DNA from: Streptomyces sp. NBC_00690
GTDB taxonomy: Bacteria > Actinomycetota > Actinomycetes > Streptomycetales > Streptomycetaceae
Assembly: GCF_036226685.1 (NCBI RefSeq)
Contig: NZ_CP109009.1
Location: 5,793,501 to 5,857,500 of the forward strand
Direction of reading: 5' to 3'
Length of the DNA stretch: 64,000 nucleotides
Shown piece by piece: positions 55,617 to 64,000 of this stretch. A program made the position numbers and the translations under genes. Under the pieces are notes generated by a model. It made no database searches, had not been told where the DNA came from, and worked only from the letters and a program-made list of their open reading frames with translations. Position 1 is the stretch's first letter; each line of letters opens with the position of its first letter.

Positions 55617-55799
55617 TCACTCGTCTTCATCGTCGTCGTCCAGCCGCGCCAGCCAGGTGGCCAGCCGTTCCACCGGCACCTCGAAGTCGGGGTTGAGGTC
55701 GACGAAGGTGCGCAACTGTTCGGCCAGCCACTCGAAGGTGACCTCTTCCTGGCCGCGCCGCTTCTCCAGCTCCTCGATGCCGCGATCGGTGAAGTACAA
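55617..55799 (-). CDS. Small conserved protein (DUF6104-like)
   Basis: The 60-residue product is strongly acidic at the end (RLDDDDEDE) and has one predicted amphipathic helix region (EELEKRRGQEEVTFEWLAEQ). I recall closely similar short proteins in Streptomyces genomes assigned to DUF6104; this is a memory-based match. It is divergent from the first gene of the trypsin/MoxR/SAV_2336 cluster by 84 bp. Confidence 0.75.
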   Translation of the reverse strand: MYFTDRGIEELEKRRGQEEVTFEWLAEQLRTFVDLNPDFEVPVERLATWLARLDDDDEDE

Positions 55800-55882: not shown

Positions 55883-56509
55883 GTGACGACCGGCCGGCCA
55901 CCGAGAAGCGGGGGACCCGTGAACGGACGCATCCAACAGATCGAACTGCCCGGGGGGGCCGTCGTGCACGCCCGGCTGTCCGCTCCCGGAGGGGGGTACT
56001 GGGAGGACGAGGAGGACGTGGGCGTGGGGGAGCAGGCCGTCGCCCGGGTCCGGCAGCTGCGGGAGCTGATAGCCGGCATCGGCGACTCGGTCCTCCAGGC
56101 GGCAGCCGCCGCCGGCCCGGACGAGGCGAGCGTCACCTTCGGGATCGAGCTGACTGCCAAGTCCGGAGCGGCACTGGCCGTCCTGGCCACCGGGGAGAGC
56201 AAGGCGTCGGTCCAGGTCTCCTTGACGTGGTACCTCCACGGTCAGCAACCCGGCCACCCCCACGGGCGGTTTCCGGGGCCGGGCCACCCGGACGCACCCC
56301 CCGGCCCGTCCCCGTCCCCGTTCCCGTCTCCTTCGCCTTCGCCTTCGCCCGGCTCGGACGGGCAGGGCACACCCGTCCCGCCTCCCGCCGCACCGCCACA
56401 GCCGCCGAACGCCCCACCCCAGCGGTCCGATCCCGTACCGGCACCGCCCCGACACCCGCCCGCCCCCACCACTCCCATCAGCCCCCCATGTCCCCCCACG
56501 GTCACGTGA
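55883..56509 (+). CDS. Trypsin-co-occurring domain protein (Trypco1, CU044_2847-like)
   Basis: A short domain at residues 17-115 has the pattern IQQIELPGGAVVHARLSAPG, then GIELTAKSGAALAVLATGES and KASVQVSLTW, matching the Trypco1 domain that is found next to trypsin-like proteases in actinobacterial operons. The C-terminal 90 residues are Pro/Ser/Ala-rich and disordered (SPSPFPSPSPSPSPG), encoded by short DNA repeats. GTG 55883 is used; GTG 55919 is an alternative. It overlaps the next gene by about 20 bp. Function unknown, but its co-occurrence suggests a regulatory or adaptor role. Confidence 0.8.
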   Translation: MTTGRPPRSGGPVNGRIQQIELPGGAVVHARLSAPGGGYWEDEEDVGVGEQAVARVRQLRELIAGIGDSVLQAAAAAGPDEASVTFGIELTAKSGAALAVLATGESKASVQVSLTWYLHGQQPGHPHGRFPGPGHPDAPPGPSPSPFPSPSPSPSPGSDGQGTPVPPPAAPPQPPNAPPQRSDPVPAPPRHPPAPTTPISPPCPPTVT

Positions 56510-58512
56510 ACGCCTCGGAGTCCGGGTCCGACCCCGTCATCGACGCCCTCGCTCGCGCCGCCACCGTCCAGTTGCGCGCCTCGGACGAGCAGGGTGGCGC
56601 ATGCTGGGGCACCGGGTTCTTCGTCGCCCCCGGTCGGCTCCTCACCTGCGCCCACGTCCTCGCACCCCACCTCAGGGGCGCCATCGACCGGGTCTTCTGG
56701 GTCGCCGGCAGCGAGGTCAACGGCGGTGAGCCGCTGCCCGCCCGACTGGACGCCTGGTTACTCGACGGCCCCGCCAGACCCGAGGTGCGGGTGCCCGTCG
56801 AACAGGATCTGGCCCTCGTGCGACTGCTGGACGCGGCGGTGGAACACGAGTGCGTATGGCTGACCGACCGCACCGACTACCCCGGCGGTCGCGGCGTCGT
56901 CCAGGGCTATCACCCCGACACCGCCGACCCGGGCTCTCGGCGTGCCGTCCGCTGGAAGGCGACCGTACGGATCAACGGCTTCGACGACGACCACGGTCTG
57001 CGCTTTCGACCCGAGGCCGAGTTCCCCAAGGGCGGCTCGGGATCGCCCGTCCTCGACGCCCACACCGGAGCGGTCGTCGGCCTGTTGAAGTCGCGGCGCG
57101 TCGGCAAGGACGGCGGAACGGCCATCGCGGCCACCGCCCTGCGCCGGTTCGGCGCCCGCTACCAGCAGCTGATGGCCGACCACGACCGCTGGCACGGCCA
57201 GTCCCCGAAGATCACCGGGCACAACTGGATCGAGCGTCAACACCAACTCCCCGGCTCCGGAATCCACACCGGCGGCGACCAGTGGAGCCCCCGGGACCGG
57301 CGCGAAGCCCTCTCCCAACTCGCCGCCATGACCGCCCCCGACGGCATCAGACCGGTCGCCGCACTCGCCAGGAAGGCCCGCGGCGACATCCCCCCACCAC
57401 CGGGGCAACTGCCCCCCTACACCTGGCGGGACGGGCACGGACTGCTGTACGAGGCCGGACAGCCGGTCGCCGCCATCGCAGCGCTGCACTACCTCCAACT
57501 GGTGGCCGAGTACGAGCGACTGCGCGGCGGTGACCCGACGGCCCTGGTGGGCTGGGTGGCGCAACGACTCCAGGAGGTGCCCCGCATCGTCCACACCGTC
57601 GTCACCCAGGCCACGCTGCCGCCCGCACTCCGCCATGTTCCAGCCCCCCTCGGTCAGCGGCCCGCCGTCGCCCGCTATCCCCGCGTCGGGGACGGCCGGG
57701 CCGTCGTCGTCGTCGAACTCGAACCCGTCATCGACGCCCGCGCCCCGCGCTTCTACTGGCGCATCCGCGTCGACGACGGCCACGGCGTCGATGAGCCGCT
57801 CCACGAGGAGCAACACGGCGACGGCGTACCGCCCGAGCGGTTGATCCAGCGGCTGCGCACCCCCCTCGCGGAGATCTTCGCCACCGTGGACGCGCCCGGT
57901 GCACCCGCACCCCTGGAAGTCGCCCTCCCCGCCGACCGCTTCGACACCGCCGTACACCGCTGGCAACTCACCGAAATGGCCCGCTTGCACTATCCCGCGC
58001 AGGTCGGCGTGCGGCGGACCGTGGTGCTGCGCGACATATCCCGACGGGGAGATCCCGACGAGCGATGGCGGCAGCGCTGGGAGGCACTGGAGCGCGCCGG
58101 CACACCCACGGCCCACCGCACGCCCCCGGTGCGACAGGTGCCCCGGGCCCGGCACTTCGACGCCCTGGCGCCGTCAGCGGTGCCCGTCCTGTGCAGACCC
58201 GTGGGCAGCGGCGTCGGACGACGGGCCATCGGCCTGGCGCTCACCGCCGGATACGGCATCGCCCTCTGGCACACCGACGGCCACCCCGAGTACGGCTGCA
58301 CCGAGACCTGCGACCGCTTCCACGACGGCGCCGCCCTCCTGCTGGCACAGGCGGGTGACGCACATGAACTACCCGAGCGCCTACGACGCCTCAGGGACGA
58401 CATCAGCGGCTCGCGGAACAGCAGGCACTGGGCCGAGGGTGCGGCCATGCTCTACGACGACCCCGGCCGTCCGCTGCCCGCCGACGAAGGCGACCCGCTG
58501 GACTCGCCCTGA
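56488..58512 (+). CDS. Trypsin-like serine protease fused to a VMAP-type C-terminal region
   Basis: Residues 16-215 form a trypsin-fold protease with the complete triad: His56 in LTCAHVL, Asp107 in EQDLALVRLL and Ser184 in PKGGSGSPV. There is no signal peptide, so it acts inside the cell. Residues 240-674 form a large uncharacterised region, partly similar in organisation to the C-terminal part of vWA-MoxR-associated proteins (VMAP): REALSQLAAMTAPDGIRPVA and YTWRDGHGLLYEAGQPV, then a beta-rich section ending in WRQRWEALERAGTPTAHRTP. ATG 56488 is used, with GTG 56506 as alternative. It is followed by MoxR. Confidence 0.8.
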   Translation: MSPHGHVNASESGSDPVIDALARAATVQLRASDEQGGACWGTGFFVAPGRLLTCAHVLAPHLRGAIDRVFWVAGSEVNGGEPLPARLDAWLLDGPARPEVRVPVEQDLALVRLLDAAVEHECVWLTDRTDYPGGRGVVQGYHPDTADPGSRRAVRWKATVRINGFDDDHGLRFRPEAEFPKGGSGSPVLDAHTGAVVGLLKSRRVGKDGGTAIAATALRRFGARYQQLMADHDRWHGQSPKITGHNWIERQHQLPGSGIHTGGDQWSPRDRREALSQLAAMTAPDGIRPVAALARKARGDIPPPPGQLPPYTWRDGHGLLYEAGQPVAAIAALHYLQLVAEYERLRGGDPTALVGWVAQRLQEVPRIVHTVVTQATLPPALRHVPAPLGQRPAVARYPRVGDGRAVVVVELEPVIDARAPRFYWRIRVDDGHGVDEPLHEEQHGDGVPPERLIQRLRTPLAEIFATVDAPGAPAPLEVALPADRFDTAVHRWQLTEMARLHYPAQVGVRRTVVLRDISRRGDPDERWRQRWEALERAGTPTAHRTPPVRQVPRARHFDALAPSAVPVLCRPVGSGVGRRAIGLALTAGYGIALWHTDGHPEYGCTETCDRFHDGAALLLAQAGDAHELPERLRRLRDDISGSRNSRHWAEGAAMLYDDPGRPLPADEGDPLDSP

Positions 58513-58639
58513 TCCGCGGGCGCTCGTCGCCGAATCCGCCATCACCCGCCGTCCACGACTTGTCATGGGACGGCGGGGCACTGGGTACATATTCCGCGTT
58601 GCCCGCCACGGCCCCCGGGCCGCCGCTAAGGAGCGAGCG

Positions 58640-59653
58640 ATGGACGACTGGCTGATCTACCGGGGCACGGGAGCCCCCGACCCCGACCGCATTGCGTCGC
58701 TCCCCCCGCCCCCGCCCTGGCGCGCCTTCTGCGGCGAGCCGCTACCGGATGCCGCGCCCCCCATCGAAGCCTCCTCGCTCCGACGGCTGGGCAACCGCAT
58801 CGAGACACCCCCCGCGCAGGACGCCGAAGCGCTCCAACTGATCAACGCCGCCCTCTATCTGCGCCGCCCCCTCCTAGTCACCGGCGAACCCGGCTCGGGG
58901 AAGTCCACCCTCGCCCACTCCATCGCCTACGAACTCGGCCTCGGTCGCGTCCTCCAATGGCCCATCGTCAGCCGCACCGAACTCACGGACGGCCTCTACA
59001 CCTACGACGCCATCGGCCGCCTCCACGATGCCCAACTCGCCGAACGCCACGACCCCTCGCACAGCGACGACATCGGGCGGTACATCAGACTCGGGCCGCT
59101 CGGTACCGCGCTCCTGCCCGCGACCCGACCCCGCGTCCTGCTCATCGACGAACTCGACAAGAGCGACATCGACCTCCCCAACGATCTGCTCAATGTGGTG
59201 GAGGAGGGCGAGTTCGCCCTGCCCGAACTGGAACGGATCGCCGACAGGCCCGGCCACGACGAGGTCCGCGTGCTCACCGACGACGGCCGCCGCGTCCCCG
59301 TGCACGGCGGACGGGTGCGCTGCCACGCCTTTCCCCTGGTGGTGATGACGAGCAACGGCGAACGGGACTTCCCCGCCCCCTTGCTGCGCCGCTGCATCCG
59401 ACTCCACCTCGACCCGCCGCGCGACGAACGACTGGCCGCCATGGTGCAGGCCCACTTCGGCTCGGGCTCGGACGAACGCAACCTCGATCTGATCGGCCAC
59501 TTCACCAGCGAGGACGGCGACGGCGAACTACGCCCCACCGACCAGCTCCTGAACGCCATCTACCTCACCCAGCACACGGTGCGCACGGAGCCCGGACGCC
59601 GTGAGGAGATCGCCGACCTCCTGATGCGGCCCCTCGACACCAGGCACGGGTGA
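58640..59653 (+). CDS. MoxR-type AAA+ ATPase
   Basis: Cytosolic AAA+ ATPase of 337 residues. Walker A is GEPGSGKST (82-90), Walker B is VLLIDELDKSD (166-176) and sensor 1 is VVMTSNGERDFP, with an arginine-finger-like LLRRCIRL. The N-terminal 60 residues are Pro-rich and may be a partner-binding part. The start follows AAGGAG. MoxR proteins typically act with vWA-domain partners, and the next gene encodes a candidate. It is 127 bp after the protease gene and 4 bp before the SAV_2336 gene. Confidence 0.88.
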   Translation: MDDWLIYRGTGAPDPDRIASLPPPPPWRAFCGEPLPDAAPPIEASSLRRLGNRIETPPAQDAEALQLINAALYLRRPLLVTGEPGSGKSTLAHSIAYELGLGRVLQWPIVSRTELTDGLYTYDAIGRLHDAQLAERHDPSHSDDIGRYIRLGPLGTALLPATRPRVLLIDELDKSDIDLPNDLLNVVEEGEFALPELERIADRPGHDEVRVLTDDGRRVPVHGGRVRCHAFPLVVMTSNGERDFPAPLLRRCIRLHLDPPRDERLAAMVQAHFGSGSDERNLDLIGHFTSEDGDGELRPTDQLLNAIYLTQHTVRTEPGRREEIADLLMRPLDTRHG

Positions 59654-59657
59654 CGCC

Positions 59658-62600
59658 ATGGGCCCATCCCGAAGGTCCCGGGACCCCGCGCCGCCTCCCC
59701 ACCCCCGAGGCACCCCGGCTCCGGACGCGGACCCGCCTGCGGACGGGGTGCGGTCGCCGGACACCCTGCACACCGTTCTGACCGCCCTGGCCACCAGGCT
59801 CCGCGCAGCGGACCTCGCCCCCACCGCGAAGGAACTCGCCGACGCGCTGTGGCTCGCCCGCCACACCCCCGCCATCGGGCTCCGTCCGTTCCCCGCCGTC
59901 CCTCCGCCCGACCGTCCGGACGACCGCCCCGCGGCCACCGAACCCGGGGTGCCCCCGGCGACGGACGCCCATGGCGCGGACGAAGACTGCCGTGCAGCGG
60001 GATGCACCGCCGAGCCCCAGCCCTCCCGCACCACCAGCCTCTACGGCCCCGCGCCTGTGGAGAGCACCCCGACCACCCCGGCCAGTGAGGCACGACGTCG
60101 GATATCCGTCCCCCATCCCGCGGTCCTGCCCGACCCGCTGGCCCTGGAACGCTCACTGCGCCCCCTCCAGCGCTACCGTCCGCCCACCCGCCCGGAGCGC
60201 CGTGCGCTCGACGAGACCGCCACCGCCGAGCGCGCCGCCGACACCGGGCTCGTCGTCCCCGTGTTCGCCGCCCGACGCAGGCGCGAGGCCCACCTCGCCC
60301 TCGTCATGGACGACTCCAGCTCCACGGTCGTGTGGCGCGGCGCCTTCGAGGAGCTCCGGCAGATCTGCGAACGCGCCGGCGCCTTCCGTGACATCACCGT
60401 CCACCACATCGATCCGCACGCCCCCCTGCCCGCCGATCTCTCGGACCCCTCGGGCCGCAGACTCACCCTGGTGCTCAGCGACTGCGTCGGCCCCCTGTGG
60501 CGCAGCGGGCGCATCCAACAGCTCCTCCACACCTGGGCGGCGACCGCGCCCGTCGCCGTCGTCCAACCGCTGCCCCAACGGATGTGGGCACGCACCCACC
60601 TCCCGGCCCGCCCCGGAGTGCTACGGCGGCGCGAGGGGCCCGCGGGTCGGATGGAGTTCACCGCACGGGGCGCCGCCCGCGCCCTCGTCCCTCCCGCGGG
60701 CGCCATCCCCATCCCCGTGCTCGCCCCGCGCCGCTCGTCGTTCGAGGCTTGGACCCGGCTGGTCACCGGAGCCACCGGGCAGACCCTGCCGGCCGCCGCG
60801 GCCCTGGTCCTGCGGCGCCACCCGCCCGCTCCGGAGCGCCCCCGTACCGCGGGCGACCTCGTACCCGCCGAACGCGTACGGGCCTTTCGCAAGCACGCCT
60901 CGCCGGCCGCCGCGCAACTCGCCGTCTATCTGGCCGCCGTCCCCCTGATGCTGCCGGTGATGCAACTCGTCCAGCGCGCCATGCTCGTGCGCAGCGGCCC
61001 GGACGTCCTGGCCGAAGTGCTGCTCAGCGGACTGCTGCGGCGCGATGACAGTGGCCCCACCGAAGCCGAGGGCGGCCCCGCGTACGCCTTCCTCGACGGC
61101 GTACGGGACGAACTGCTGGGCCAACTCGGCGCCAGCAGCGCAGCCCTGGTGCTCAAGCACTGCTCCGACTACATCGAGGCGCGCTACGGACGGACCGTAC
61201 GCAACTTCCCGGCGCTCGCGGCGGCCTTCCTCGCCGGCGCGGTACCCGCACCCACCCCGGTCGACCCGGCGGCCCTGTCCCGGCTCGCCGACCAGGACGG
61301 CCCGGGCCTCTGGGCCTTCGCCCAGGTCTCCACGCAGGTCCTGCGCCGCCTCGGCACCCCACCGCCCTCGACGGTCCCCGACAGCCTGACCCACAACGGC
61401 CCGGCCGCCCTGGTCGCCAAGGCCCGCGCCGCCTACACCCACTTCGGCGAGCATGGCACCGTACGCGATCTGGACACCGCGATCCGACTGCTCGGCTCCG
61501 CCACCCAGGAGGAACGACGCACCACCGAACGGGCCGCGCTCTTCGAGGAACTCGGCGAGGCCCTGTTGCGGCGCTGGCTGGTCCGGCCACTGCCGGAAGA
61601 CCTCATCGCCGCCCTGGACGCCGCCCAGAGCGCCATCTCCGACGGTCCCCCGAGGGCGCATCTCACCCTCGCCCGGGTGCTGCACGCCATGGCGGAGGAG
61701 GTGGCGACGGGACGCCTCGACTCCAAGCTCGTACCGGAGTGGGTCTGGGTCCAGGCCGGAGCGTCCGACGAGCCCGCCCGGCGCATGCAGTCGGTGGCCG
61801 CGGTGCTGCTCTCCGCCGCCGACAGCAGCCTGGCCGAACTGACCGTGCCCCCCGAGCGCTACGACCGCCGCTATGAGGACATCGCGGTGGCCGCGGCGAC
61901 CACCCGCATCCGCGTCCTGCGCCGGCTCGCCGCCCTGGGCGCACCGCACGGCACACGACCCCCCGCGGCGCCGCAGGACCCCGCCACGACGACTGGCGGG
62001 CCGCCGTCCCGATCCCGCCGTGAGGACCTGCCCCAGACGGCCAGACAGCCGCAGGCCACCCCGGGGGAGTGGTTCACCGCCACCCTGTGGATCGCCGTCG
62101 GTGTCGTCCAACGGCTCCTCGACCGGGCCGCCGACACCCAGGAGACCTATCCCGACGGCGATACCGAACTCCCGTCGTCCGAGCGTCGCGAACCCGCACT
62201 GCTGCTGCGCGGCGGGCTCCTCCTCGACCTCGCCCGCCACCACCGCGGCGACGGCCCCGTACGACCGACGGCCGTGGACCCGGCGACCGCCCGTGAGTAC
62301 GCGGAACGAGCGGGCGAGGACCTCCACGCCGGCATCGACGGCATGGACTGGGACGCCGTCGACGGGCGCGAGCTGTGCCGGGCCTGGTTGGACTACGCCG
62401 ACGCCATCGAACTCGCCGCCGACCTCCTCGACGACGACGCCAGACTGCGCATCCTCCAGGCCCTCGACCAGGCCCGCCGCGCCGTCGGCCGGGACGAGCG
62501 GGCACGGGCCGGCATCCTGTTGCGCATGGCCAGGCTGTTGGAGCAGCGCTACCTCTCCACCGGCAGTTGGGCCCACCGCGACTCGGCCGTCGCTGCCTGG

Positions 62601-63212
62601 ACCGAGGCCCTGCCCCTGCTGGCCCGGCGCGATCCGGCCCGGCCTGCCGTCCTCACCTCCCTCGGACGACAGTTGACGGAACGGGGCGTCGACAAGGACA
62701 CGGCCGACGACGTCCACGCCGCGGTACGGGCCCTGCGCACCGCGATCGAGGCCACCGGACCGGCCGACCCCGAGCTACCGCGGCGGCGAGCGCTGCTGGG
62801 ACAGGCGTACATCGAGCGTTTCCGCGCCGACGGGAAGCCCGCCGACCTCCAGTTGGCGGACTGGGCGCTCGGCGCAGCCGCCCGTACCGTCGACGATCCG
62901 GAACTGGCCGCGTACGCCTGGTGGTACCGGGCCCTGTGCTCCGCCTTGCTCGCCCGGCACGCCGATTCGCCCACCCGACTCCAGTCCGCGGTCGACTACT
63001 GCCATCGAGCCCAACGCGGGCCCACCGGGCTGTTGGAGACGGCCGTGATGACCCAGTGGGCCCGCGCGGGGCGACTGGAGCGCACCTCGGGCCCCGAGCG
63101 GGCGCTGAACGAGCACCGGGCGGTACTGGCGCTGTTGTCCGCCGCGGGCATCAAGACCGGTACTGGCCTGCTCCGCAGGGAAGTCGCGCGGCTGGAAGCG
63201 GCGGCGCGCTGA
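59658..63212 (+). CDS. SAV_2336-family protein with degenerate vWA-like domain and helical repeats
   Basis: The 1184-residue protein begins with a disordered Pro-rich section, then a SAV_2336-type N-terminal region with a vWA-like strand and metal-site-like motif (HLALVMDDSSSTVVW at about 212-226). It continues with a Rossmann-like alternation (LTLVLSDCVGPLWRSGRIQQ) and long alpha-helical repeats from about residue 630 to the end, TPR-like in spacing (RARAGILLRMARLLEQRY). The DDSSS stretch resembles a vWA MIDAS but lacks a clear second Thr, so metal binding is uncertain. It is the last gene of the cluster; the helical repeats probably act as a sensor or platform. Confidence 0.8.
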   Translation: MGPSRRSRDPAPPPHPRGTPAPDADPPADGVRSPDTLHTVLTALATRLRAADLAPTAKELADALWLARHTPAIGLRPFPAVPPPDRPDDRPAATEPGVPPATDAHGADEDCRAAGCTAEPQPSRTTSLYGPAPVESTPTTPASEARRRISVPHPAVLPDPLALERSLRPLQRYRPPTRPERRALDETATAERAADTGLVVPVFAARRRREAHLALVMDDSSSTVVWRGAFEELRQICERAGAFRDITVHHIDPHAPLPADLSDPSGRRLTLVLSDCVGPLWRSGRIQQLLHTWAATAPVAVVQPLPQRMWARTHLPARPGVLRRREGPAGRMEFTARGAARALVPPAGAIPIPVLAPRRSSFEAWTRLVTGATGQTLPAAAALVLRRHPPAPERPRTAGDLVPAERVRAFRKHASPAAAQLAVYLAAVPLMLPVMQLVQRAMLVRSGPDVLAEVLLSGLLRRDDSGPTEAEGGPAYAFLDGVRDELLGQLGASSAALVLKHCSDYIEARYGRTVRNFPALAAAFLAGAVPAPTPVDPAALSRLADQDGPGLWAFAQVSTQVLRRLGTPPPSTVPDSLTHNGPAALVAKARAAYTHFGEHGTVRDLDTAIRLLGSATQEERRTTERAALFEELGEALLRRWLVRPLPEDLIAALDAAQSAISDGPPRAHLTLARVLHAMAEEVATGRLDSKLVPEWVWVQAGASDEPARRMQSVAAVLLSAADSSLAELTVPPERYDRRYEDIAVAAATTRIRVLRRLAALGAPHGTRPPAAPQDPATTTGGPPSRSRREDLPQTARQPQATPGEWFTATLWIAVGVVQRLLDRAADTQETYPDGDTELPSSERREPALLLRGGLLLDLARHHRGDGPVRPTAVDPATAREYAERAGEDLHAGIDGMDWDAVDGRELCRAWLDYADAIELAADLLDDDARLRILQALDQARRAVGRDERARAGILLRMARLLEQRYLSTGSWAHRDSAVAAWTEALPLLARRDPARPAVLTSLGRQLTERGVDKDTADDVHAAVRALRTAIEATGPADPELPRRRALLGQAYIERFRADGKPADLQLADWALGAAARTVDDPELAAYAWWYRALCSALLARHADSPTRLQSAVDYCHRAQRGPTGLLETAVMTQWARAGRLERTSGPERALNEHRAVLALLSAAGIKTGTGLLRREVARLEAAAR

Positions 63213-63267
63213 AATCCCGCGGCCCCGCGTTCCAGTAGCCCGGTCCCCATGGCACCCGGGCACGAGC

Positions 63268-63307
63268 GAGGGGCCCGCCCCGCGCCTGTGCGCGGAACGG
63301 GCCCCTC
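63268..63307. terminator. Terminator between the SAV_2336-type gene and sucA/kgd
   Basis: GAGGGGCCCG (63268-63277) pairs with CGGGCCCCTC (63298-63307) as a perfect 10-bp stem, extended by CGCG inner pairing. The genes converge here. Confidence 0.8.
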
Positions 63308-63358
63308 GAACATCAGCCGTCAACCATCAGCCAGGCCCCGGCGAGCCGGAGCACCGGA

Positions 63359-64000
63359 TCAGGCGTCGAAGACCTCGTTCACCAACTGCTGCTGCTCCGC
63401 CTGGTGACGCTTGGCGGAACCCACCGCCGGCGACGAGCCGTGCGGACGCGAGATGCGCCGCAGCCGCTCGCCGTGCGGAATGTCCGCGCCGACGGCCAGA
63501 TCGAGGTGGTCGATCAGGTTCAGCGCGATGAACGGCCACGCACCCTGGTTCGCCGGCTCCTCCTGCGCCCACAGGTACTTCGCGGCGTTCGGGAACTTGG
63601 CGATCTCGGCCTGGAGCTCCGCACCCGGCAGCGGGTACAGCCGCTCCAGACGGATGATCGCCGTGTCCGTGATACCGCGCTTGTTCCGCTCGGCGTCCAG
63701 GTCGTAGTAGACCTTGCCGGAGGTGAAGACCACCTTGCGCACGGCCGTCGGGTCCACCGAAGCGTCGCCGATCACCGGGCGGAAGCCGCCGGTCAGGAAC
63801 TCGTCCACCTTCGAAGCCGCGGCCTTCAGGCGCAGCATCGACTTCGGCGTGAAGACGATCAGCGGCTTGTGGTGCGGGTTGTGGACCTGCCAGCGCAGCA
63901 GGTGGAAGTAGTTCGACGGGAGCGTCGGCATCGCGACCGTCATGTTGTTCTGCGCGCACATCTGGAGGAACCGCTCCGGGCGGGCGGAGCTGTGGTCCGG
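63359..64000 (-). CDS. sucA: 2-oxoglutarate dehydrogenase/decarboxylase E1 (multifunctional), C-terminal part only
   Basis: Thiamine-dependent TCA-cycle enzyme, present here only from its last 214 codons. Residues at the end (VFTPKSMLRLKAAASKVDEF, VRKVVFTSGKVYYDLDAERN, GAWPFIALNLIDHLD) match the C-terminus of the actinobacterial multifunctional E1/E2 protein (kgd). The gene is transcribed towards the window's interior, so the start and the N-terminal succinyltransferase-like part lie beyond 64000. The Rossmann-like end (RRISRPHGSSPAVGSAKRHQ) is as expected. Confidence 0.93.
   Translation of the reverse strand, partial: PDHSSARPERFLQMCAQNNMTVAMPTLPSNYFHLLRWQVHNPHHKPLIVFTPKSMLRLKAAASKVDEFLTGGFRPVIGDASVDPTAVRKVVFTSGKVYYDLDAERNKRGITDTAIIRLERLYPLPGAELQAEIAKFPNAAKYLWAQEEPANQGAWPFIALNLIDHLDLAVGADIPHGERLRRISRPHGSSPAVGSAKRHQAEQQQLVNEVFDA

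Follow-up and report, generated by a model that had tools for sequence, protein, structure and literature searches.

Ternary systems built from a VMAP protein, a MoxR ATPase and a vWA protein are common, and two opposite models of which component senses and which one acts have been published. Kaur et al. (2020, PMC7159879) proposed that VMAP senses, that MoxR switches and that vWA-linked effectors are released by proteolysis. A 2024 proposal in PNAS has the vWA protein sensing, MoxR relaying and the N-terminal domain of VMAP acting as the effector; characterized antiviral STAND (signal transduction ATPases with numerous domains) proteins have their effector in the fused N-terminal domain (PMC10907252). 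The combination of Trypco1, trypsin-VMAP, MoxR and vWA has already been described (PMC7159879). Four genes of this composition lie in a 64,000-nucleotide stretch from Streptomyces sp. NBC_00690 (contig NZ_CP109009.1, positions 5,793,501 to 5,857,500; hereafter the window). They almost certainly constitute a classical vWA-MoxR-VMAP ternary system, and the reading favoured here, at a probability of about 0.45, is that of a reduced Trypco1-trypsin VMAP system in which the TPR/vWA protein senses, MoxR switches and the protease is the effector. New in this analysis are a chromosomal address that is occupied or empty block-wise, the exchange of cargo there, a conserved core free of the FxSxx peptide cassette, and a promoter element. 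A single-copy, cassette-free module with natural empty-site relatives, having one protease, one ATPase and one TPR protein, offers a simple test of polarity.

The assignment rests on profile matches to genes 1, 2 and 4 and on signature motifs in the MoxR protein encoded by gene 3. A sequence-only reading of the same stretch had called four co-directional genes and proposed a domain search for Trypco1, VMAP-C and SAV_2336; the open frames, all on the forward strand, are confirmed, and the search returned all three families. Gene 1 (55919..56509, +) encodes the Trypco1 protein (PF19493, E 4.7e-15; NF041216, E 3.8e-19). Its identity stands as first given, and its start is more likely the GTG at 55919 (196 aa) than the position 55883 (208 aa) chosen earlier; against the PDB it gave only two chance-level matches. 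The end of gene 1 and the start of gene 2 share GTGA (56506-56509); a gap of 127 nt lies between gene 2 and gene 3, and one of 4 nt separates gene 3 from gene 4. The 9.17-Mb genome, in two contigs, holds VMAP-C, the SAV_2336 N-terminal domain and Trypco1 once each (E <= 0.001). Hydropathy detected no membrane-like segments (19-residue Kyte-Doolittle maximum 1.0-1.8; no signal-peptide predictor was run), and a secreted protease or an umbrella-type toxin, as in a Streptomyces toxin paper, was rejected for lack of such a segment.

Gene 2 (56506..58512, +; 668 aa from the GTG at 56506, 674 aa from an ATG at 56488) encodes an HtrA-like protease (residues ~20-210; Trypsin_2, PF13365, E 2.4e-12), a helical middle (217-367) and a VMAP-C domain (415-653; PF20028, E 7.1e-38, 131 bits against a cut-off of 27). 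The last match bears out the VMAP-type extension that had been read on the protease, and PF20028 is matched in 60/60 members of alignment A2. The triad is complete, as had been claimed: H50-D101-S178, counted from the GTG. Ser178 lies in GGSGSP (residues 176-181; codon 57037..57039, +) and is the Ser184 of the earlier numbering from the ATG. In aligned rows, which here and for the motifs of MoxR and gene 4 include the window's own, the histidine is kept in 84/85, the aspartate in 86/86 and the serine in 85/86. The triad is incomplete in three rows only: the match in L101 is spurious or cut, L104 is cut, and L105 has a gap where the histidine would stand; L numbers denote loci outside the window and G numbers sampled genomes. 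Structure searches with the gene 2 model place the predicted protease fold nearest to HtrA/DegS, a family known for allosteric activation; both fold searches returned protease-domain matches throughout and none that informs on VMAP-C. A helical VMAP-M middle region would be expected in such a protein; the model has helices at 217-367, and Pfam reported no VMAP-M family in the 60 members at E <= 0.01. A hypervariable sensor in this middle region was considered and rejected, with w, within the window's clade, of 0.17-0.26 there versus 0.16-0.28 in the protease.

Gene 3 (58640..59653, +; 337 aa; Shine-Dalgarno sequence AAGGAG) is the MoxR AAA+ ATPase it had been taken for, with matches to the AAA_5/AAA P-loop profiles and with Walker A and B, sensor and double arginine motifs. 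The N-terminal motifs printed for MoxR of VMAP systems, WxhapG and PsWRxa (PMC7159879), are seen as WLIYRG at 4-9 and PPWRAF at 25-30, and W4, G9, W27 and R28 are kept in 86/86 aligned rows. Gene 4 (59658..63212, +; 1184 aa) matches SAV_2336_NTERM (NF041121, E 2.5e-135, residues 56-512) and has no Pfam match; a PDB sequence-profile search gave 0 matches. Its N-terminal helices are followed by a vWA-like domain and a TPR superhelix at about 575-1183, in line with the vWA-like region and helical repeats called earlier. Residues of the metal ion-dependent adhesion site (MIDAS) are conserved (D218 in 91/91 aligned rows, S220 in 90/91, S222 in 89/91, D275 in 91/91). The predicted structure has an alpha/beta core and then helices, with low-confidence linkers at 1-34 and 71-124, and a fold search that covered the TPR part and not the vWA part identified the C-terminal TPRs. 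The N-terminal vWA motif printed for VMAP systems, [D/E]xxx[D/E]xxxa (PMC7159879), is unmatched in residues 1-200; ELADALW at 59-65 comes close to it, with D/E at 62 and W65 each in 87/87 rows.

Set beside the Trypco1-trypsin subtype (PMC7159879), the module shares VMAP-C with an N-terminal trypsin that bears its triad, an adjoining Trypco1 gene, the order 5'-VMAP-MoxR-vWA-3', the MoxR motifs, and a vWA domain with helical flanks followed by repeats in the variable C-terminal part. It differs in nothing essential, although the vWA motif is not present letter for letter and VMAP-M goes unreported by Pfam. VMAP systems linked to diversity-generating retroelements (PMC10907252) also combine trypsin-VMAP, MoxR and a vWA protein, but there the vWA protein ends in retroelement-diversified variable CLec domains, whereas here it ends in TPRs. 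VMAP systems with an FxSxx peptide cassette (PMC7159879) resemble the module in a vWA domain fused only to TPRs; they differ in carrying an FxsB gene and an AP-ATPase-TPR gene downstream, and the window has no FxsB or FxSxx_TPR gene between gene 4 and the neighbouring kgd gene (an FxSxx precursor peptide was not searched for).

The module stands between a 60-aa open reading frame (ORF) with a TTG start (55617..55799, -), which we take to be of the DUF6104 type, and the 3' part of a kgd/sucA-like 2-oxoglutarate dehydrogenase gene (63359..64000, -; PF16870, E 7.6e-44), convergent with the module across a gap of 146 bp. A search with gene 4 found 405 related loci, of which the best 80 (L026-L105) were used, a set occupied by construction. 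MoxR was found in 76/80 of them, trypsin-VMAP in 75/80 and Trypco1 in 74/80, the six without Trypco1 being short or truncated by contig ends. VMAP, MoxR and vWA all occur in 75/80, and their order by best hit is that of the window except in L073. Among the relatives listed for genes 2 and 4, the named ones are Streptomyces, except one labelled Actinomycetota bacterium. The neighbours recur as well: the DUF6104-type ORF in 72/80, DUF4097 in 70/80, PadR in 68/80, kgd in 63/80 and ADH in 54/80. Of the 72 loci with the ORF, 71 have it on the left side of the module, 58 in the window's orientation and 13 reversed (L031, L033, L035, L041, L043-L045, L051, L058, L061, L062, L064 and L073); the remaining one, L038, has it on the right side, adjoining kgd. 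The border has therefore been rearranged at times, and the module is usually, but not invariably, placed between this ORF and kgd.

Presence at this address varies. A VMAP-C gene occurs somewhere in 84/101 genomes of an even genus sample and in 242/295 of a larger one, and at least 46 of 100 kgd-bearing genomes have VMAP-C convergent with kgd within 25 kb, a lower bound in a sample with many fragmented assemblies. From 54 kgd sites without adjoining VMAP-C, 20 were chosen for long contigs; the distance from ORF to kgd is 78-239 bp in 14 of these, 586 bp in one, ~1.5 kb in four and 4.5 kb in one. Given occupied junctions on the one hand and short empty ones on the other, the module behaves as one block that is either there or missing at a single place. 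In the occupied/empty pair L082 and L137, homology ends at about the start codon of the DUF6104-type ORF and on the other side reaches the kgd stop; no edge repeats or target duplication were seen by eye in this one aligned pair. This polymorphism suits the putative conflict system first proposed. A mobile island was rejected: nearly all kin loci share the single address, no integrase occurs among the neighbouring genes scanned and no tRNA gene in the window. Searches with gene 2 disfavour it further: at E <= 1e-5 none of 50,697 phage records was matched, and at E <= 1e-10 the 72,556 plasmid records gave a single, partial match (52% covered, 45% identity). The literature search found no paper describing the kgd-side address.

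A flank-gene tree of 98 rows implies at least 12 changes of occupancy, and one of 68 rows at least 8 changes of the FxSxx cassette. These are counts without a shuffle that do not distinguish gain from loss, on a quick tree with two long branches joined; 18 of the 20 sites above entered it, L120 and L136 being omitted for a missing flank. Pairwise-distance correlations over 80 rows are 0.63-0.93 between module genes and 0.64-0.78 between flank genes, and 0.31-0.56 across the two. Both the tree and the correlations hold duplicate strains (L081/L140, L092/L139 and L045/L142 with identical flanks, L049/L145 with nearly identical ones). The pattern suggests that blocks were exchanged at the address, or lost and regained there, on a background of mostly vertical short-range descent; faster evolution of the module can account for part of the correlation gap.

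The cassette is a frequent companion of the module. Where kgd is in view (63 kin loci), the interval from gene 4 to kgd holds genes for an FxsB radical SAM protein and an FxSxx TPR protein in 50 loci and neither of them in 12; in L086 an FxSxx_TPR part is fused to the vWA protein. Neither gene is at the site in L026-L029 or L034. The window and L026-L029 form one cassette-free clade (98 in the Shimodaira-Hasegawa-like approximate likelihood ratio test, SH-aLRT), and L034, compared with its close relative L032, lacks the cassette between gene 4 and the kgd hairpin. One could suppose that the core works in trans with FxSxx systems elsewhere in the genome that supply an NTPase/TPR effector, since three genes each for FxsB and FxSxx_TPR exceed the curated cut-off there and both cassette genes so often adjoin the module in relatives. 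This seems improbable, as stand-alone peptide-processing systems with their own AP-ATPase have been described (PMC7159879) and the FxSxx loci of this genome (L106-L108, L111-L113) lie at 2.06, 2.69 and 8.60 Mb, far from the module at 5.85 Mb.

Selection in the cassette-free clade points to a working core. Ratios of nonsynonymous to synonymous substitution rates (dN/dS) within the clade are 0.25-0.43, 0.18-0.27, 0.09-0.16 and 0.30-0.39 for genes 1 to 4 and 0.08-0.36 for flank genes; these and the related w values are rough because they come from a custom Nei-Gojobori script on tblastn pairs, with dS of about 0.5-1.2 for module genes. Purifying selection acts on each of the four genes, and the triad is intact; a pseudogene or decayed locus was rejected on the intact frames and triad and the low dN/dS. 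The core therefore does a selected job without adjoining FxsB or FxSxx_TPR, and in a clade so maintained the protease is the sole evident output enzyme.

The mechanism we infer, from TPR sensing and the direction of signalling to protease latency, its targets and a role in defence, would run as follows. The TPR superhelix of gene 4 would recognize an intracellular sign of invasion or damage. MoxR, coupled to the vWA domain, would turn this signal into a change driven by ATP and relay it to VMAP-C. The protease of gene 2, with its HtrA-like fold, would be kept latent, perhaps by Trypco1, until it is switched on, and could then cleave host proteins, leading to growth stop or cell death that spares the mycelium. 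A defence setting is supported in general by a 2023 survey that places vWA-MoxR-VMAP proteins near type III CRISPR loci (PMC10910872). That a protease is restrained until a sensor and the ATPase release it was already the proposal of the sequence-only reading; it lies near one of the published models and the data lean towards it, unproven as it is.

The polarity of Kaur et al. would invert these roles. The middle and C-terminal domains of VMAP would sense the invader, MoxR-vWA would set the threshold, and the protease would cut the vWA protein, whose freed C-terminal part would serve as scaffold, decoy or trap. Apart from being a published proposal (PMC7159879), this is consistent with the varied vWA C-termini at the site (TPR, an FxSxx_TPR-like fusion, NB-ARC, or NB-ARC plus trypsin) and with the long low-confidence linkers predicted in gene 4, which could be cut. 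It is nevertheless the unlikelier polarity here, because the C-terminus of the window's gene 4 is a TPR superhelix only, with no enzyme seen, and the middle of gene 2 is no more variable than its protease. The second polarity, in which the vWA protein senses and the protease acts, is favoured, though unproven, because the vWA protein shows TPRs only and because a trypsin-NB-ARC-TPR system that shares the slot has the same ends with another switch.

This second system occupies the kgd site in L133 (770-5141), where a Trypco1 protein (E 1.2e-24) accompanies a trypsin-NB-ARC-TPR protein and no VMAP is present; three VMAP lie elsewhere in that genome. It resembles the module in its kgd address, Trypco1, trypsin and TPRs, and differs in having an NB-ARC ATPase in one polypeptide rather than MoxR, vWA and VMAP-C. 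Trypco1, trypsin and TPRs therefore recur with another NTPase at the same site, which makes a comparative argument for the protease as output. A lone Trypco1 of the same kind at the kgd site of L132 (783-1115) is perhaps a remnant, and Trypco1 proteins of this type (93-100% identity) adjoin kgd in 2/101 genomes. Other cargo is found too. Homologues of gene 4 carry NB-ARC in L070 and L077 and also a trypsin domain in L077, in a domain scan that covered L026, L070 and L077 among the 12 cassette-free kin loci. In L120 (11064-12296), from a genome with no VMAP-C match, a gene for an HExxH-type peptide beta-hydroxylase lies between the DUF6104-type ORF and kgd, with a like frame in L131. In L143 (1102-12484), Trypco1, trypsin-VMAP, MoxR and vWA precede a frame of 443 aa and a TIR-NB-ARC-TPR protein; the arrangement, in which no FxsB was found, is a further cassette type. 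A tentative generalization, which we hold to be possible rather than probable, is that the kgd junction serves the Streptomyces chromosome as a slot for immune switches built on a protease. Trypco1, a trypsin effector and a TPR sensor would be constant, the NTPase switch (MoxR-vWA or NB-ARC) and add-ons (FxsB/FxSxx_TPR, HExxH hydroxylase) would be exchanged or lost, and an own SigB-type promoter of MoxR-vWA would let stress set the alarm threshold.

The promoter element comes from the gap between genes 2 and 3 (58513-58639 in the window). GGGTA[CT] is present in 52/73 such gaps, including the window's, against a mean of 5.2 and a maximum of 12 in 200 shuffles that kept two-base blocks, and stands exactly 89 nt before MoxR 37 times. 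In many kin it belongs to an element CCGGAAA-N23-GGGTAC, often at that distance; a scan of the 80 loci on both strands (1.67 Mb) located the extended form CC[GT]G?AA[AC]-N20-26-GGGTA[CT] 41 times, always upstream of MoxR. Promoters of S. coelicolor SigB homologues have a -10 box GGGTAC or GGGTAT and a -35 box GTTT or, more loosely, GNNT (PMC8346170), and the corresponding layout GNNT-N14-16-GGGTA[CT] is found upstream of MoxR in 27/76 loci, with 0.9 expected. All these counts are inflated by the relatedness of the loci. By motif comparison among kin and with the published SigB-family table (PMC8346170), the window's candidate -10 box is GGGTACATA (58583..58591, +), 57 nt before the MoxR start. 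It has neither the CCGGAAA upstream box nor a SigB-type -35 match, and the extended element occurs twice in the window, both times on the minus strand and neither before MoxR. The motif suggests a separate, perhaps stress-driven, promoter for MoxR-vWA. Because a promoter-like element separates genes 2 and 3 in many relatives, a single four-gene transcript should not be assumed.

Such a promoter raises the alternative that the genes serve stress or developmental proteolysis instead of defence, with an HtrA-like cytosolic protease and a MoxR-vWA chaperone raised by SigB-type control. The HtrA-like fold, the purifying selection and the near absence of gene 2 from phage and plasmid records would all agree with it. 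Patchy presence, empty sites, different cargo and at least 12 changes of occupancy are unlike a housekeeping function, however, and the window itself lacks the extended element and the SigB -35 box, so that this explanation appears rather unlikely.

Several observations weigh against the favoured reading of a protease effector released in defence. The SigB-like promoter would suit a role in stress physiology no less than one in defence. The literature search, with most subscription papers and bioRxiv preprints outside its coverage, found no phage, toxicity or other experiments on any VMAP system; the earlier statement that no biochemical role is known for this set thus stands as to experiments, while the combination itself was already in print. 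PADLOC gave weak matches only (at best mad8, E 1.8e-6, to the ATPase; RT-Protease_XI, E 5e-4, to the protease). Within the clade, dN/dS reveals no hypervariable folded sensor region: w in the C-terminal part of gene 4 is 0.28-0.37 (0.33-0.46 at 531-800), little above the 0.21-0.31 of the vWA part, and variability peaks in the low-confidence N-terminal residues 1-150 (0.40-0.65). Genes 1 and 2 have, again within the clade, dN/dS like that of the flanking PadR and DUF4097 genes. Finally, among modules with a MoxR distance below 0.35, the correlations between module and flank genes, of which four were tested, increase to 0.54-0.75, so that short-range descent is largely vertical. As for selection among farther kin, dN/dS of genes 2 and 4 (0.43-0.61) exceeds that of DUF4097 (0.35-0.38), a contrast limited to that comparison.

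The block had been said to end at a clear terminator. A scan found no T-tailed terminator after gene 4, and the G+C hairpin between gene 4 and kgd (about 63267..63308, no strand assigned) is probably kgd's own, because it lies ~50 bp past the kgd stop and a similar inverted repeat is seen by eye at the same place in empty-site genomes. Among the 46 genomes with VMAP-C convergent with kgd, the spacing is unusual in two, at 761 bp in G068 and 23.5 kb in G034. In L141 (from G068) and L073, a pair of closely spaced VMAP-C genes apparently lies at the site or near it. At the left border, the DUF6104-type ORF apparently starts with TTG in the window and with ATG in the aligned empty-site relative L137.

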